64,000 nucleotides of DNA from a virus (IMGVR_UViG_3300042373_001302:1-64000); one strand, 5' to 3'. Numbered from the stretch's first letter, positions 55,666 through 61,192 are shown. Notes: generated from the sequence alone by a model not told the origin. Numbers and translations are program-made.

Positions 55666-56607
55666 TTAACGACGTATCATTTGTATAATATTGTGAACTT
55701 TATCTAAACCTGCTTTATCATCAGGTTTAGGTAATTCTTTAAAATAATTTACAGCACCATCAAAATATAAAGGACATATCGTTCCAGCTCCTCCTTCACG
55801 ACCACCTAATATTTCCAAAAATCTTATATTATCTTTAAAAAATCTAATATTGTAACCATAATAGTCTTCTATTTCATGTCTAAATGGACTAAATAAACCA
55901 ACTATCACATTAGCATCTCTTTGAGTCATTTTATTATCTCCAAGACCATCTAATGAAGGTTTTAATTTATTAGCTTTTTTATTTTCTATAGATTCTTGTG
56001 CTGCTGCTTGTTGTTGAATTACTACTGGTATATAACCAAATCTATTTCGTAATTTAATTAAATAATCTGAACTTAATTTACCTATTGATTCATGTAAAGT
56101 CATAGGTAATCCTGTGTCTTTGTTTTTTTCTGTACTAATTAAACCAATATGATCAATAATACACATTACATATTCTTCAGGATCATTAGGTTCATAATAA
56201 TCTTCTACTTCAATAAATTCATCTTTTTTAGTTTCTATACGTCTTTTATGAATTTTACCATGATTAATAGCATAATTTCTTAAAAGTGTATAGATACCAT
56301 AAGGATTTCTTATATCATCAATAAATTCAACAATTTCCTCAATTTTTTCAAAATAAGGTTTATATTTTTCAATTACTTTTAAAATTTCTTCAGGGAGAAT
56401 TTTATCTGCTTTTGTACTTTTTAAATGCATAGGACTAATCCTAATACCTTCTTTTTCATATAATATGTTAGCAAAAGCTGATAACATTTTTTCTTCTTTA
56501 GACATTTCTAAAGTAAAATAAAATATTTTTAATCTTATATTAAGATTATTATCTATAACTTGTTTTATAGTATTATATAAGAACAAGCTGTCTGCAATTT
56601 GAGTTTT
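55666..56607 (-). CDS. dnaB: Replicative DNA helicase DnaB-type, exon 3 (RecA-like domain)
   Basis: Exon 3 encodes 313 residues starting KTQIADSLFLYN. Its FYFTLEMSKEEKM, VMCIIDHIGLIS (Walker B), VVIQQQAAAQES (H4-like) and DGLGDNKMTQRDANVIVGL segments are the C-terminal part of the DnaB helicase core. Read alone it lacks both a start and the P-loop: the frame upstream meets a TAG at 56617-56619 and the apparent TTG start at 56586 is internal. Joined to exon 2 (58656-58664) and exon 1 (59705-59875) it gives A-N-S-K-V-G-K-T, a perfect Walker A, in a 373-residue protein. Splice sites are predicted. Confidence 0.85.
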   Translation of the reverse strand, partial: KTQIADSLFLYNTIKQVIDNNLNIRLKIFYFTLEMSKEEKMLSAFANILYEKEGIRISPMHLKSTKADKILPEEILKVIEKYKPYFEKIEEIVEFIDDIRNPYGIYTLLRNYAINHGKIHKRRIETKKDEFIEVEDYYEPNDPEEYVMCIIDHIGLISTEKNKDTGLPMTLHESIGKLSSDYLIKLRNRFGYIPVVIQQQAAAQESIENKKANKLKPSLDGLGDNKMTQRDANVIVGLFSPFRHEIEDYYGYNIRFFKDNIRFLEILGGREGGAGTICPLYFDGAVNYFKELPKPDDKAGLDKVHNIIQMIRR

Positions 56608-56634
56608 CTTTTACTCTATAATTTAATAATTAAA

Positions 56635-57249
56635 TTATACGGTTGTATTTACACACCAAATTTTAATATTATTATCACTATTTGGATTTAAAAACCAATC
56701 TGTAGTAGTCATACTAAGTTGTTGTAACCAAGTATAATAATCTTCATGATTATCATTACGATTAGTACTAAAAATAATAGCTCCTCTACTACTATTTCTA
56801 CAAATTTGTTTAATTGTATTGATAATATTAGTAAAAATACTTTTTTTCAAAGCAACATAATCATCATGTGTAGTATCAACATGTTGTTCAATTACATTTA
56901 TTATAGGATTTAAACCACTAATAGTTTCAATACCACAAGAAAAATCAGGATTTTCTCTTGAAAAACCTACAGTTCTTTCTACAAGTTGATTAGTTCTATC
57001 ATTAAATCTAAATCTTATCACATTATTGTCATTTGTAACAACAATACTTTGAATAATTTGATTTTCTGTTCTAATTGGTGGTAGAGGTGGTACAACATTA
57101 ACATCTTCAAATAAACTTCTGTCATATCTAACTAATTTACCTGAATCATTAATAATTTTTACATAGTTACCATCTTCTTCCTCAATATTATATTCCGTAT
57201 TTAATGTAATTTTATAATTTTTAGTATTTTTACATTTTAATTTTGCCAT
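56635..57249 (-). CDS. ORF in 3' part of intron B, unknown
   Basis: A 204-residue protein from the ATG at 57249 (an upstream ATG at 57306 lies inside the intron's P7 element and is unlikely). It starts MAKLKCKNTKNYKITLNTEYNIEEEDG, a small SH3-like looking beta domain, then a PPLPPIR linker, a beta middle, and a helical C-terminus with RGAIIFSTNRNDN and NIKIWCVNTTV. No LAGLIDADG, GIY-YIG, HNH or His-Cys box motif is present. It lies between the intron S element and the 3' splice site. Confidence 0.55.
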   Translation of the reverse strand: MAKLKCKNTKNYKITLNTEYNIEEEDGNYVKIINDSGKLVRYDRSLFEDVNVVPPLPPIRTENQIIQSIVVTNDNNVIRFRFNDRTNQLVERTVGFSRENPDFSCGIETISGLNPIINVIEQHVDTTHDDYVALKKSIFTNIINTIKQICRNSSRGAIIFSTNRNDNHEDYYTWLQQLSMTTTDWFLNPNSDNNIKIWCVNTTV

Positions 57250-57264
57250 TTTTATAATTTTTAA

Positions 57265-57393
57265 TTTAATATTTATATTTATAGTTTGGACTATCTCTTC
57301 AACCATTATGGTTGCTGGACGCTATAAGCTCACCGTAGTGTCTTTAGTCTCTACACCTTCATCAGTCTTCCCTGAAGCTTGGCACGGTATTGT
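57265..57393 (-). ncRNA. Catalytic core of group I intron B
   Basis: Contains P3 (57388-57384 with 57336-57332), the R-like element ending AGACTA near 57345, and the S element from 57300 to 57288, in the order P3-P4/P6-R-P8-S. The similarity to the T4 td intron core (AGUAGACAAU, CCGUGC) points to subgroup IA. Confidence 0.75.
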
Positions 57394-58095
57394 CTACTTA
57401 AAAAATACTGATTTTAAATATCTTTCACAAGTTTTAAACTTTTTTTCTTCTAATAATTCAAACACTTTTTTTCTTTCAGCTTGTTTACCATGTTTTACAG
57501 TACCTCCTACATACATATAAATATGATTATATGTTAAAAAAGTTTTATCACCAAAAAACTTATGGAATTCAGTTAATGTTTTAAATGGTTTGTTTAAATA
57601 ATCAGTATTTGATGACCAAGTTTCAACAGATGGATCATAAAAACCATCCATAATTGGAGTATAATATGAAGGCATTTTATAATATTGATTTATACCAGTA
57701 TTTATTTTATGCCAATTATAATAATGTGCTAATAAAAAAGCATTTTGAATTGTAACACCTAATTTATTCATCATTATTGTGTCTTCAAGAATTTTACGAA
57801 TATCTTTAGTTCTTGTATATCTACAAATTCTAAAGAAAAATACTTGAACAGATTCAATTTTATTTTCAAATTCAAAACTATTATCTGTTACATTTGTAAT
57901 AATTGTTTTAAATCTAAATCTTTTTATAATATCTATTAATAAAGATACATCTTCAGAATCATATGTTTCAAATCTGTGTAGCAAACCTTCTTTATAACCA
58001 TTTCCACAACTCATATTTGTAAAATTAAATTTTATATTAAGAGCACTTGATGCATTACTAGGTCCTACTTTAAGTTTTGTTAAGTATTTACTCAT
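57394..58095 (-). CDS. ORF in a peripheral loop of intron B, unknown
   Basis: A 233-residue protein. Its start codon and stop codon lie within the two strands of a 12-bp complementary pair (CTATTTAAAAAA / TTTTTTAAGTAG), so the gene occupies the loop of an intron helix, the usual site for intron ORFs. Sequence: a Cys/Gly motif NMSCGNGYKEG, an IIKRFRFKTIITNVTDNSFEFEN segment, a helical middle and a basic end with KHGKQAERKKVFELLEEKKFK. I recognise no endonuclease or maturase motif; it could be a divergent one or phage cargo. Confidence 0.6.
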   Translation of the reverse strand: MSKYLTKLKVGPSNASSALNIKFNFTNMSCGNGYKEGLLHRFETYDSEDVSLLIDIIKRFRFKTIITNVTDNSFEFENKIESVQVFFFRICRYTRTKDIRKILEDTIMMNKLGVTIQNAFLLAHYYNWHKINTGINQYYKMPSYYTPIMDGFYDPSVETWSSNTDYLNKPFKTLTEFHKFFGDKTFLTYNHIYMYVGGTVKHGKQAERKKVFELLEEKKFKTCERYLKSVFFK

Positions 58096-58152
58096 TTTTT
58101 AAATAGATTTTCACCGTTTTCATCCAGTTTAATGTAAACTATTATACGGTTG

Positions 58153-58596
58153 TTAATATTTTCTCATTTTTTCATAATCAGCTAAAGAATAGCCGTCTAT
58201 ACCTTTTGTAGTATAATAATTACTTTTAGCATGTGATGACATATATGATGCATTACCATTATTGTAATATTTTACAGTAACTTTTTGAATCATATTACAC
58301 CATACTAACACTACAGCTTTGTCTTCTTTAATAAATTCAAATATTAACTTTACAACACTTTCTAAAGATGTTATGGGAAATCTTGATTTAACAATCATAT
58401 GAAGATCTGTAATGCTTCTAAATGCATTTACTTTTGTATCTTGACCTTTACCATCACATTGTAATTTTGTGCATTCTGGGTCATCGTATGTAGGTATAGA
58501 TTTACCTCTTAAAAAGTATCTAAGAAGTTGTTTACGAGATGTAGTAATTGGTACATCTGTTTCTTTAACATAAATTAATTTCTCATTTTGTTTCAT
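58153..58596 (-). CDS. ORF in 5' part of intron B, unknown
   Basis: A 147-residue protein located between intron B's P1 and its next helix. Seen: SRKQLLRYFLRGKSIPTYDD, then CTKLQCDGKGQDTK, and a C-terminal YNNGNASYMSSHAKSNYYTTKG. No known homing endonuclease motif; the two Cys are not in a zinc pattern. The ATG has an AT-rich leader like other phage genes here. Its 3' end carries a 13-bp sequence repeated at the 3' end of the 204-residue ORF. Confidence 0.55.
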   Translation of the reverse strand: MKQNEKLIYVKETDVPITTSRKQLLRYFLRGKSIPTYDDPECTKLQCDGKGQDTKVNAFRSITDLHMIVKSRFPITSLESVVKLIFEFIKEDKAVVLVWCNMIQKVTVKYYNNGNASYMSSHAKSNYYTTKGIDGYSLADYEKMRKY

Positions 58597-58655
58597 TTTT
58601 ATTTAATAGTTTAAATTTTTACATCTAATTATTACTAACTAGCTTGGCAAACGCT

Positions 58656-58664
58656 ACCAACTTT
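58656..58664 (-). CDS. dnaB: Replicative DNA helicase, exon 2 (9-nt microexon encoding K-V-G of Walker A)
   Basis: AAAGTTGGT on the - strand. It is preceded by intron A ending ...AAAAG and followed by intron B, whose first helix P1 pairs TTGGT with GCCAA and puts a U-G pair at the junction. An in-frame TAA 12-14 bases upstream of the GGT codon rules out a longer exon. Joining it in frame between ...ANS (exon 1) and KTQ... (exon 3) restores A-x4-G-K-T. This is a prediction from reading frame and intron rules. Confidence 0.72.
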
Positions 58665-58671
58665 CTTTTAT

Positions 58672-58886
58672 ATTCTATATAAAACGCAACTTTTATACAC
58701 GTTCTCTTACGAACTGCTATATGTCCCCATATAGAATAGACTATATCTTTATCTCATTGAGATAGCTCCCTTTTCCACAACCATAAGCTTGTTGTGTACA
58801 CCTGCGGCGGTTAGTCGTTGAACGTTCCTTTATATAATAAAGGCTTCGCTGCTGATTACCTGTTCTAGGCTTCCCAGCAATTAAAG
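58672..58886 (-). ncRNA. Catalytic core of group I intron A
   Basis: The P3-P9 region begins ten bases after the GIY-YIG stop codon. The Q, R and S elements named for intron A occur in the correct order and spacing, with a P8 arm containing ACAACAAGCTTATGGTTGT as its hairpin. It is GC-richer than the surrounding coding sequence, as expected for a ribozyme core. Confidence 0.88.
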
Positions 58887-58896
58887 AGCTTGTCAT

Positions 58897-59610
58897 TTAG
58901 ATGTCACCATCTAACGTAGCTATTTCAATATAATATTTGTTTTTAAATTTACTTTTTCTTTTAATACTTTGTGATATCTGACTTGGAAAACAATTAAAAT
59001 AATTAGCACATTCTTTTAAAGAATTAAAAGACATTTCTAGTTGTAAACTATTATAATTTATAATATTTACTTTTTTATTTAAAAATGTATTATCTTTTTT
59101 ATCTTTAATATAAGGTTCTAATTTATTAACATAATTTAAAGACCATAAATAATTACCTCCTTTTTTATATGTTTTATTTAAAAATCTACAAATTGTAGAT
59201 TGATGAATATTATTTTCTTTACATGCTTTTATAATATAATCATAACTTTTAATAAAATTACCATTTAAATCATATTGATGTATTTGTTTACCAAATGAAC
59301 TATGTTCTAAAACTTTTTTTACAATATTAAATTCAGGTTGAAATAAATCAATATAAAATTGTTCTTTTTCAATTAAATTTTCAATTTCACAAAATTCAAG
59401 AATAATATATATAAAATTATTTTCTTTATATTTATTCCAAGAATTTTGTAATATTTTATTATTGTGTTTGTTTTTACGTAATTGACATTTATGATTAATT
59501 AGTCTTTCACTTAAACTTTTAGAACTTCCAATGTATCTTTTTTGATTTGTAATATTTAAAATACAATAAATACCTGATTTGTTTAATAAATTTTTTCTTA
59601 CTGTTTGCAT
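58897..59610 (-). CDS. Intron-encoded GIY-YIG homing endonuclease
   Basis: A 237-residue enzyme. The catalytic domain (1-90) has SGIYCILNI and KRYIGSSKSL, then ERLINHKCQLRKNKHNNKILQ and LIEKEQFYID with the catalytic Glu. DNA-binding modules follow: IHQYDLNGNFIKSYDYI with an HQSTICRFLN helix (IENR/NUMOD1-like) and a second copy SFNSLKECANYF...SQISQSI. It lies inside intron A upstream of the ribozyme core and has its own promoter within the intron. It would spread the intron into intronless helicase genes. Confidence 0.9.
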   Translation of the reverse strand: MQTVRKNLLNKSGIYCILNITNQKRYIGSSKSLSERLINHKCQLRKNKHNNKILQNSWNKYKENNFIYIILEFCEIENLIEKEQFYIDLFQPEFNIVKKVLEHSSFGKQIHQYDLNGNFIKSYDYIIKACKENNIHQSTICRFLNKTYKKGGNYLWSLNYVNKLEPYIKDKKDNTFLNKKVNIINYNSLQLEMSFNSLKECANYFNCFPSQISQSIKRKSKFKNKYYIEIATLDGDI

Positions 59611-59624
59611 AAAATTATGTTTTA

Positions 59625-59658
59625 TACAAAAATACGAAAAATAAATTAAATTACCAAA
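59625..59658 (-). promoter_or_regulatory. Bacteroidetes-type promoter inside intron A
   Basis: On the - strand TTTGGTAAT from 59658 and TATTTTTGTA ending at 59625, same 34-bp layout as the other four. It lies 14 bases before the GIY-YIG ATG, so the endonuclease can be made from an mRNA that starts inside the intron. Confidence 0.7.
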
Positions 59659-59704
59659 TATTTAACATATTATTAACGCAAATTATTATATTAAATTGAT
59701 GTTA

Positions 59705-59875
59705 ACTATTTGCAGTGACAAGATAATATTTACCTTTTTCTATACCTGGATTTTCTTCTTCAAATCTAGGAAATCCCCAAGGTATACAATTAATTTTATT
59801 ATTTAATAATCTTTCTCGTCTATTTACGAGATTTTCATATACTCTGTCATATAGACTAAAGTTTTCTTTTTTCAT
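59705..59875 (-). CDS. dnaB: Replicative DNA helicase, exon 1 (start of protein to first half of Walker A)
   Basis: 57 codons from the ATG at 59875, directly after the preceding stop. It encodes MKKENFSLYDRVYENL..., then INCIPWGFPRFEEENPGIEKGKYYLVTANS. The G-K-Y-Y-L-V-T-A-N-S strand is the beta strand and first half of a P-loop. The frame then meets a TAA four bases later, where intron A begins. The primase-interacting N-terminal domain of cellular DnaB is absent; this is a core helicase. Confidence 0.82.
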
Positions 59876-60466: not shown

Positions 60467-60849
60467 GTGTACATTAATTGTTTTTTATGTTCAGTCCAAT
60501 CACCTGATTTAACAAGTCTATCTTCAGTAACATTTGGTACATAAATATAAATACTTGCTTCACCATAAGGTGTATCTATAAATATTTTATCATAAAAAGT
60601 ATTATTTCCTTGTTCGGAATAACCTTCTAATGCATCAACCCAATAAGCTTCTTGATTATTTACTTCATATACTTCAATTACTACTGGAGTATTTCCATTT
60701 TGTTTTAATCCTGGAAATCCACCAAGACTATACAAACTAAAAGTAGGTTCTGTAGTACAGGTTCCTAAATATTTAGCATCTTTAATAATTCCATGATTAT
60801 GAAATCCTTTACGTAATGATCCGTAGACCGCAATTAATTTTTTATTCAT
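60463..60849 (-). CDS. GGCT/AIG2-like gamma-glutamyl cyclotransferase
   Basis: A 128-residue single-domain protein: LIAVYGSLRKGFHNH (canonical YGSLR loop), KYLGTCTTEPTFSLYSLGGFPGL, EVYEV, VDALEGY (catalytic Glu) and a closing SGDWTEH. Family members cyclise gamma-glutamylamines or peptides to 5-oxoproline. A longer paralogue is part of the amidoligase cluster at 52130-52717, about 8 kb away. Four-base overlap with the downstream replication gene. Confidence 0.85.
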   Translation of the reverse strand: MNKKLIAVYGSLRKGFHNHGIIKDAKYLGTCTTEPTFSLYSLGGFPGLKQNGNTPVVIEVYEVNNQEAYWVDALEGYSEQGNNTFYDKIFIDTPYGEASIYIYVPNVTEDRLVKSGDWTEHKKQLMYT

Positions 60850-61192
60850 TTTTTATAAATTGATTCATATAATTTTCAAAATATTCTAAACTATAATCAT
60901 AATATCCACCAAAAAAACTCCAATGTTGACTATTTTTAGGTTCAAATACAACCTTTTTAACATCTGGACAAAATAAAGCTTTAATTTCTTTATTTAAAAA
61001 TAATTCTTTTAAAACTTTAGTAACATCAGATTTTTTATATTCAGCTTTTAATAAATTATATGTAATATAATTTAATGTTACACCTGTATAATATTTACAA
61101 TATTTATTATCTAAAACTTTTAATGTTCTTTTTTTAGAATCAGGATTATCATTTAAATATTTTAATATTTTTTCTTTTATTTCTTCATTCAT
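60842..61192 (-). CDS. Unknown small protein
   Basis: A 116-residue, Lys/Tyr/Asn-rich protein: LKYLNDNPDSKKRTLKVLDN at the start, SDVTKVLKELFLNKEIKALF in the middle (possible winged helix), and an aromatic end with HWSFFGGYYDYSLEYF. No family recognised. It overlaps the GGCT gene by eight bases. Confidence 0.55.
   Translation of the reverse strand: MNEEIKEKILKYLNDNPDSKKRTLKVLDNKYCKYYTGVTLNYITYNLLKAEYKKSDVTKVLKELFLNKEIKALFCPDVKKVVFEPKNSQHWSFFGGYYDYSLEYFENYMNQFIKNE

Follow-up and report, generated by a model that had tools for sequence, protein, structure and literature searches.

Very short exons between two group I introns have been described in several systems. A micro-exon of 1 nucleotide (nt) lies between two such introns in placozoan mitochondrial cox1 (PMC5436844), and one of 34 nt in the 23S rRNA of Coxiella (PMC10136302). 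In phage Twort, according to extracts of PMC10136302 that refer to Landthaler and Shub 1999, introns 2 and 3 of orf142 are separated by a 23-nt exon and exon skipping was observed; extracts of PMC11878797 describe, for Bastillevirinae, a small exon in the ribonucleotide reductase gene of phiNIT1 and exon skipping in SIOphi. The crAss-like phages are known to be intron-rich, with dense group I introns in the core genes MCP, PolB and primase (PMC7886860, PMC10136315). Here we consider a viral stretch of 64,000 nt, IMGVR_UViG_3300042373_001302:1-64000 (the whole of it is called the window below), in which the minus strand from 59875 to 55666 holds a gene for a DnaB-like helicase, interrupted twice. 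We give a probability of about 0.9 to the reading that two independent group I introns, A and B, interrupt this gene three codons apart, and that both would be removed while the 9-nt microexon between them is kept.

The locus is like placozoan cox1 in having a tiny exon between group I introns, explained in cox1 by the insertion of a second intron next to one already present; however, the cox1 exon is 1 nt long, belongs to an animal mitochondrion, lies between introns of group IB and was shown by RNA-seq, whereas the present one has 9 nt, forms three whole codons of a phage gene and is known from sequence (PMC5436844). In Twort, too, a single phage gene holds two closely spaced group I introns, but the 23-nt exon between them is, by the extracts, in a tail gene, while the exon described here, of 9 nt, belongs to Walker A and is for the most part a P1 strand (PMC10136302). 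Several group I introns per gene, with a small exon between two of them, are also reported in the extracts on Bastillevirinae, for other phages and other genes (PMC11878797). The surveys of crAss-like introns deal with Crassvirales, as we do; they stress the Delta and Zeta groups and other genes, whereas here adjacent introns are found in a DnaB-like helicase gene among relatives of Steigviridae (PMC7886860, PMC10136315). Walker A inteins, for example those of haloarchaeal MCM-a, are likewise mobile elements that target the ATP-binding loop of a replicative helicase and have insertion sites close to one another, but they are removed by protein splicing rather than RNA splicing (PMC10643990). 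New are the 9-nt length in a phage gene, the location in Walker A, the occurrence in nine phages and the exon-guide covariation at both introns. We found no shorter exon between group I introns of a phage gene in the open-access papers searched; a shorter one may be published elsewhere.

Helicase gene and microexon

The exons, the introns and the intron features located below are all on the minus strand. Exon 1 (59705-59875) is an open reading frame (ORF) of 57 codons, MKKENF...YYLVTANS, followed by TAA and homologous to the N-terminus of intronless helicases. Exon 3 (55666-56607) opens with KTQIADSLFLYN and runs from KTQIADSL... to a stop; it matches a DnaB-like helicase in PHROG (1.7e-5) and has tblastn matches in 54 phage records. 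The microexon AAAGTTGGT (58656-58664), between introns A and B, encodes K-V-G of the Walker A loop A-N-S-K-V-G-K-T. The original prediction, made from the window alone, had placed the three exons at precisely these coordinates, all of which hold.

No Pfam domain was found in exon 1 alone or in exon 3 alone. When the exons were joined through K-V-G, DnaB_C was matched with 33.2 bits (cut-off 27; an intact relative, locus L020, scored 44.3 bits); joined without K-V-G, they had no Pfam match, even at E 10. The spliced product would be a 373-residue helicase with an intact Walker A loop, having both the DnaB_C domain and the Walker A motif by which DnaB-like replicative helicases are recognized. 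The exon 3 profile had no match among PDB sequences, and a structure prediction of the intact helicase (pLDDT 55) was not used.

Relatives of exon 3 were collected from IMG/VR and sorted by script; duplicates (contig, identical sequence) were removed by hand. The resulting 73 distinct loci comprised 45 intronless loci, 19 with B only, nine with both A and B, and none with A only. The intronless relatives, a comparison that the original prediction had called for, carry both exon homologues, always exactly 9 nt (three codons) apart, and these codons read K-V-G (mostly) or K-x-G/A; the match with the microexon thus goes beyond coincidence. An exon of 9 nt is present at the same place in eight further phages with A and B, thus in nine distinct phages in all, and it varies solely as GTT/GTG/GTA/ATT, i.e. 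between Val and Ile; it has the anatomy and the coding conservation of a microexon. The split helicase, the microexon and the A-x4-G-K-T P-loop, all proposed earlier, are in this way supported by independent loci. The closest annotated helicases are those of phi14:2 (49%), cr108_1 (45%) and crAss001 (43%), Steigviridae according to their records; judged by these matches, the phage is a crAss-like member of Crassvirales, related to Steigviridae.

Intron A

Intron A (58665-59704, 1040 nt) ends in G at 58665, directly before the microexon. The Rfam search that had been proposed for the locus, with RF00028 (Intron_gpI) on a 4.3-kb stretch, found intron A clearly (58936-58717, 96.5 bits, E 8e-25), in agreement with the first of the two group I cores of the original prediction. 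Scans of the whole window (1-64000) returned nothing, which we take as a loss caused by the speed filters of the search; since they missed a 96.5-bit intron, such scans can give false negatives and are no guide to further introns in the window. A model built from eight other loci, with the window excluded, recovered intron A with E 7e-58 and an envelope ending at 58665-58666. In the alignment of nine A introns 34 of 74 predicted pairs had compensatory changes; the conserved P3-P8 core is present, with P7 (GACUA/UAGUC) read from the sequence. Most pairs of a hairpin upstream of the 3' splice site (58676-58699) also show compensatory changes.

The internal guide GCUA (58917-58920) is predicted to pair with the last four bases of exon 1, UAGU (59708-59705), leaving U.G at the splice site; this P1 is an addition to what had been noticed before. 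All nine loci have the splice-site U.G and the terminal G. L135 has CAGU in the exon, with AAC in place of AAT for Asn, and this synonymous change is compensated in the intron, where the guide is GCUG.

The loop between the two strands of P1 holds a gene (58897-59610, 237 aa) for a predicted homing endonuclease of the GIY-YIG type (Pfam GIY-YIG, E 1.1e-10; NUMOD1, E 2.2e-5; PHROG homing endonuclease, 4e-18). The gene is missing from intron A of L028, which has only 302 nt. With its predicted endonuclease, its scattered occurrence and a clean presence/absence pair (see below), intron A has the marks of a mobile (homing) intron. A Bacteroidota-like promoter motif precedes the endonuclease gene in four A introns; it is not enriched in the window. 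Relatives of the intron A core were seen elsewhere in related phages (L151 8943-9106, L140 3675-3878, L052 6679-6831, L016 3281-3438 and L055 2999-3187), a possible source pool.

Intron B and its predicted use of the microexon

Intron B (56608-58655, 2048 nt) likewise ends in G, at 56608, directly before exon 3. In the window it scored 19.8 bits with Rfam, which is below the cut-off, since its core is divided by ORFs; homologues with a compact core reached 67.1 bits (L005) and 68.8 bits (L003), and the model from eight other loci, with the window excluded, recovered intron B as three ordered blocks. The second predicted core is thereby upheld, with its division by two ORFs as a new element. 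Apart from the ORFs the core has all its parts: P1 (UUGGU/GCCAA), P2, P3 (CUGGAUG/CGUCCAG), P7 (read from the sequence) and P8. Compensatory changes were found in 13 of 46 pairs, including those of the P2 hairpin (58625-58642) and P3, which is CUGGAUG/CGUCCAG in six loci and UCGGAUG/CGUCCGA in three. The 5' strands of P3 and P4/P5 are at 58109-58128; the 3' part of the core (P4', P6, P7, P3', P8, P7') is at 57289-57394, where the leave-window-out model gave E 6.4e-28. With conserved P3-P8 cores including P7, both elements have the sequence features of group I introns.

The guide of intron B, GCCAA (58644-58648), would pair with UUGGU (58660-58656), so that five of the nine microexon bases form the 5' strand of its P1 and the four bases AAAG separate the end of A from P1. 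By this pairing the microexon would double as the 3' exon of intron A and the P1 strand of intron B. In the folding prediction the hairpin near the end of intron A adjoins P1 of intron B. The arrangement is not a twintron, in which one intron would be nested in the other: A ends 9 nt upstream of B, and those 9 nt are coding. The U.G pair expected at the splice site of B is present in all 28 introns with a recognized guide (none was recognized in L127), and in 27 of 28 the guide is preceded by UUU, which could pair with AAA of exon 3 as P10. The terminal G, earlier predicted for both introns, is found in all B introns once three loci are corrected in which exon 3 has an additional intron or the exon start was misplaced. 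At exon position -4 the window and L124 have UUGGU with GCCAA, and most others have GUGGGU with GCCC or GCTC; pairing occurs in 23 of 27, whereas shuffling would lead one to expect 19.8 (p 0.03). The Val/Ile codon ends in G in 21 of 27 B-bearing genes versus 3 of 33 intronless ones (p 5e-8, uncorrected for kinship), which could reflect a pairing constraint or co-transfer of flanking exon sequence.

The guides bear on whether the whole interval between exons 1 and 3 might instead be removed as one composite unit, from the 5' site of A to the 3' site of B, with K-V-G skipped. Nine nucleotides would preserve the frame, and phage Twort, Coxiella and SIOphi provide documented cases of an exon skipped between two group I introns, according to extracts of PMC10136302 and PMC11878797. 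Still, the protein without K-V-G loses every Pfam match, the three codons are present in all intronless relatives, and the microexon varies between Val and Ile, as a coding exon would; moreover, as the sequence reads, the guide of intron B meets the end of exon 1 with an A.C mismatch at -3, and use of that junction by B is therefore not to be expected. We consider composite removal quite improbable. Skipping as a minor event, yielding a second, inactive form of the helicase that regulates replication, could coexist with inclusion of the microexon; it would fit the in-frame length, and the extracts on SIOphi and Twort give precedents for mixed products. Selection for skipping is not apparent, however, and the guides of A and B differ, which makes a regulatory form of this kind unlikely.

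The three ORFs of intron B had no recognized endonuclease domain. ORF1 (58153-58596, 147 aa), between P2 and P3, belongs to a family found in many B introns; its structure model is winged-helix-like (pLDDT 82), with no confident PDB match. ORF2 (57394-58095, 233 aa), in a loop of the P4-P6 domain, is of a family common to other B introns. ORF3 (56635-57249, 204 aa), between P7' and the 3' splice site, is a homologue of phi14:2 g028 (tblastn 30.5% over 98%, E 2e-6). LAGLIDADG genes are present in some B homologues. The B introns of the window and of L003-L151 have several ORFs each, with at least eight recurrent families without a recognized endonuclease domain; these ORFs resemble cargo genes that a group I intron carries along. 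A 116-aa protein encoded outside the intron (window 60842-61192) resembles the ORF1 family (motif FCPDxxK), which suggests that free-standing phage genes and intron ORFs have a common family. The motif CAACCGTATAAT has exactly two copies in the window, 58141-58152 and 56634-56645, at the ends of ORF1 and ORF3 (∼0.17 matches expected even allowing one mismatch); the pair may mark how the ORFs were inserted.

Distribution of the introns and proposed origin of the microexon

Intron B is found at the window position without A in 17 loci, thus B needs no A; the constrained or ordered splicing that the original prediction had derived from the arrangement is conjectural. In the two other B-only loci (L046 and L127) the insertion is 4 nt upstream, AAGGT|AGGA. 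The intron of L127 (4930-6000), 4 nt upstream of the B site, is a different one with an A-type GIY-YIG gene; counting it, insertions occur at three points or more within 9 bp of Walker A. In L135 (3088-4123), L143, L149 and L151 exon 3 is itself interrupted, by an additional intron inside the Met codon of its FTLEM/FSLEM motif, which brings the helicase gene of L135 to three introns.

L004 (A and B) and L007 (B) form a close pair that differs in intron A: 146 of 153 bases of exon 1 and 860 of 900 bases of exon 3 are identical (∼95%), and L004 differs by a clean 952-nt intron A. On the maximum-likelihood tree of exon 3 the state with both introns needs seven changes, at least five of them forced by supported branches. 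Given these changes and the L004/L007 pair, A has been gained or lost repeatedly, always beside B. Among 2.9 million viral contigs no intron A was found joined directly to KVGK[TS] without B by a strict pattern. The association of A with B has p 7e-5 over all loci and p 0.03 over those genes alone in which the end of exon 1 fits the guide of A, both uncorrected for kinship; with the value so weakened and kinship uncorrected we do not claim a dependence of A on B, of which the scattered occurrence always beside B is suggestive. One could speculate that A is a follower, with an endonuclease target or a splicing need that includes the start of intron B, and so invades only B-bearing genes; this idea is tentative and, in our estimate, doubtful. 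If it is true, each invasion by A would create a 9-nt exon common to two ribozymes.

Exon positions and reading frame, both ribozyme cores, the P1 pairings, the terminal G and the scattered presence of A on B-bearing genes are shown by the sequences. The reading that accounts for them has B arriving first and A entering a gene that already held B 9 bp downstream; the microexon would exist because A inserted 9 bp upstream of B. In the transcript, pairing of GCUA with UAGU would let intron A join exon 1 to AAAGTTGGT, and pairing of GCCAA with the last five microexon bases would let intron B join the microexon to exon 3; with both introns removed, a helicase with an intact Walker A loop should result. 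We infer that both ribozymes splice in the infected cell and that the microexon is included in the product.

Were the introns dead and the gene broken, exon 3 could be expressed alone, or another helicase could be used. There are in-frame internal start codons in exon 3, and the annotated g029 of phi14:2 starts within it. Nevertheless, compensatory changes maintain both ribozymes, the exons are kept at the protein level in all loci, and phi14:2, which has intron B and its exon 1 in g024, is viable in culture. An intact helicase elsewhere, which the original prediction had named as counter-evidence, is not apparent: the record (70,233 bases) has exon 3 in a single copy and no separate DnaB_C match. 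We regard a broken gene as very unlikely. An assembly artefact or chimera, conceivable for a metagenomic contig, is hardly credible: a second IMG/VR contig (L002) has an identical copy of the locus, and the arrangement recurs in eight other phages.

Some observations weigh against correct removal of both introns from an otherwise unique helicase gene. The 70,233-base IMG/VR record may be incomplete, and for this reason a second helicase elsewhere in the genome is conceivable. P10 of intron A is missing in the window; just three P1 pairs lie beside the splice site of B in four B-bearing loci and in L046; and several of the statistics ignore shared ancestry.

A cultured relative and significance

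In Cellulophaga phage phi14:2 (NC_021806.1; L165, 9000-18000) the helicase is split by an unannotated intron at the position of B; intron A is absent. Gene g024 contains exon 1 plus AAAGTGGGT, g025-g028 lie within the intron, and g029, annotated as DnaB, begins inside exon 3. Rfam did not recognize a core in this intron and returned chance families only; we identify the element as intron B because it is inserted at the same point, has the P1 and guide sequence of B, ends in G and has ORFs in common with other B introns. The joined exons should read AATAGT-AAAGTGGGT-AAATCACAA; a phage-host pair in which intron B can be tested thus exists.

The helicase genes of such phages, that of cultured phi14:2 included, are annotated without their ATP-binding loop. 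Close relatives form a natural series with no intron, with B only, and with A plus B; the series makes it testable whether one nine-base exon can serve two ribozymes, which of them splices first, whether the exon is ever skipped, and whether one mobile intron prepares the site of another.

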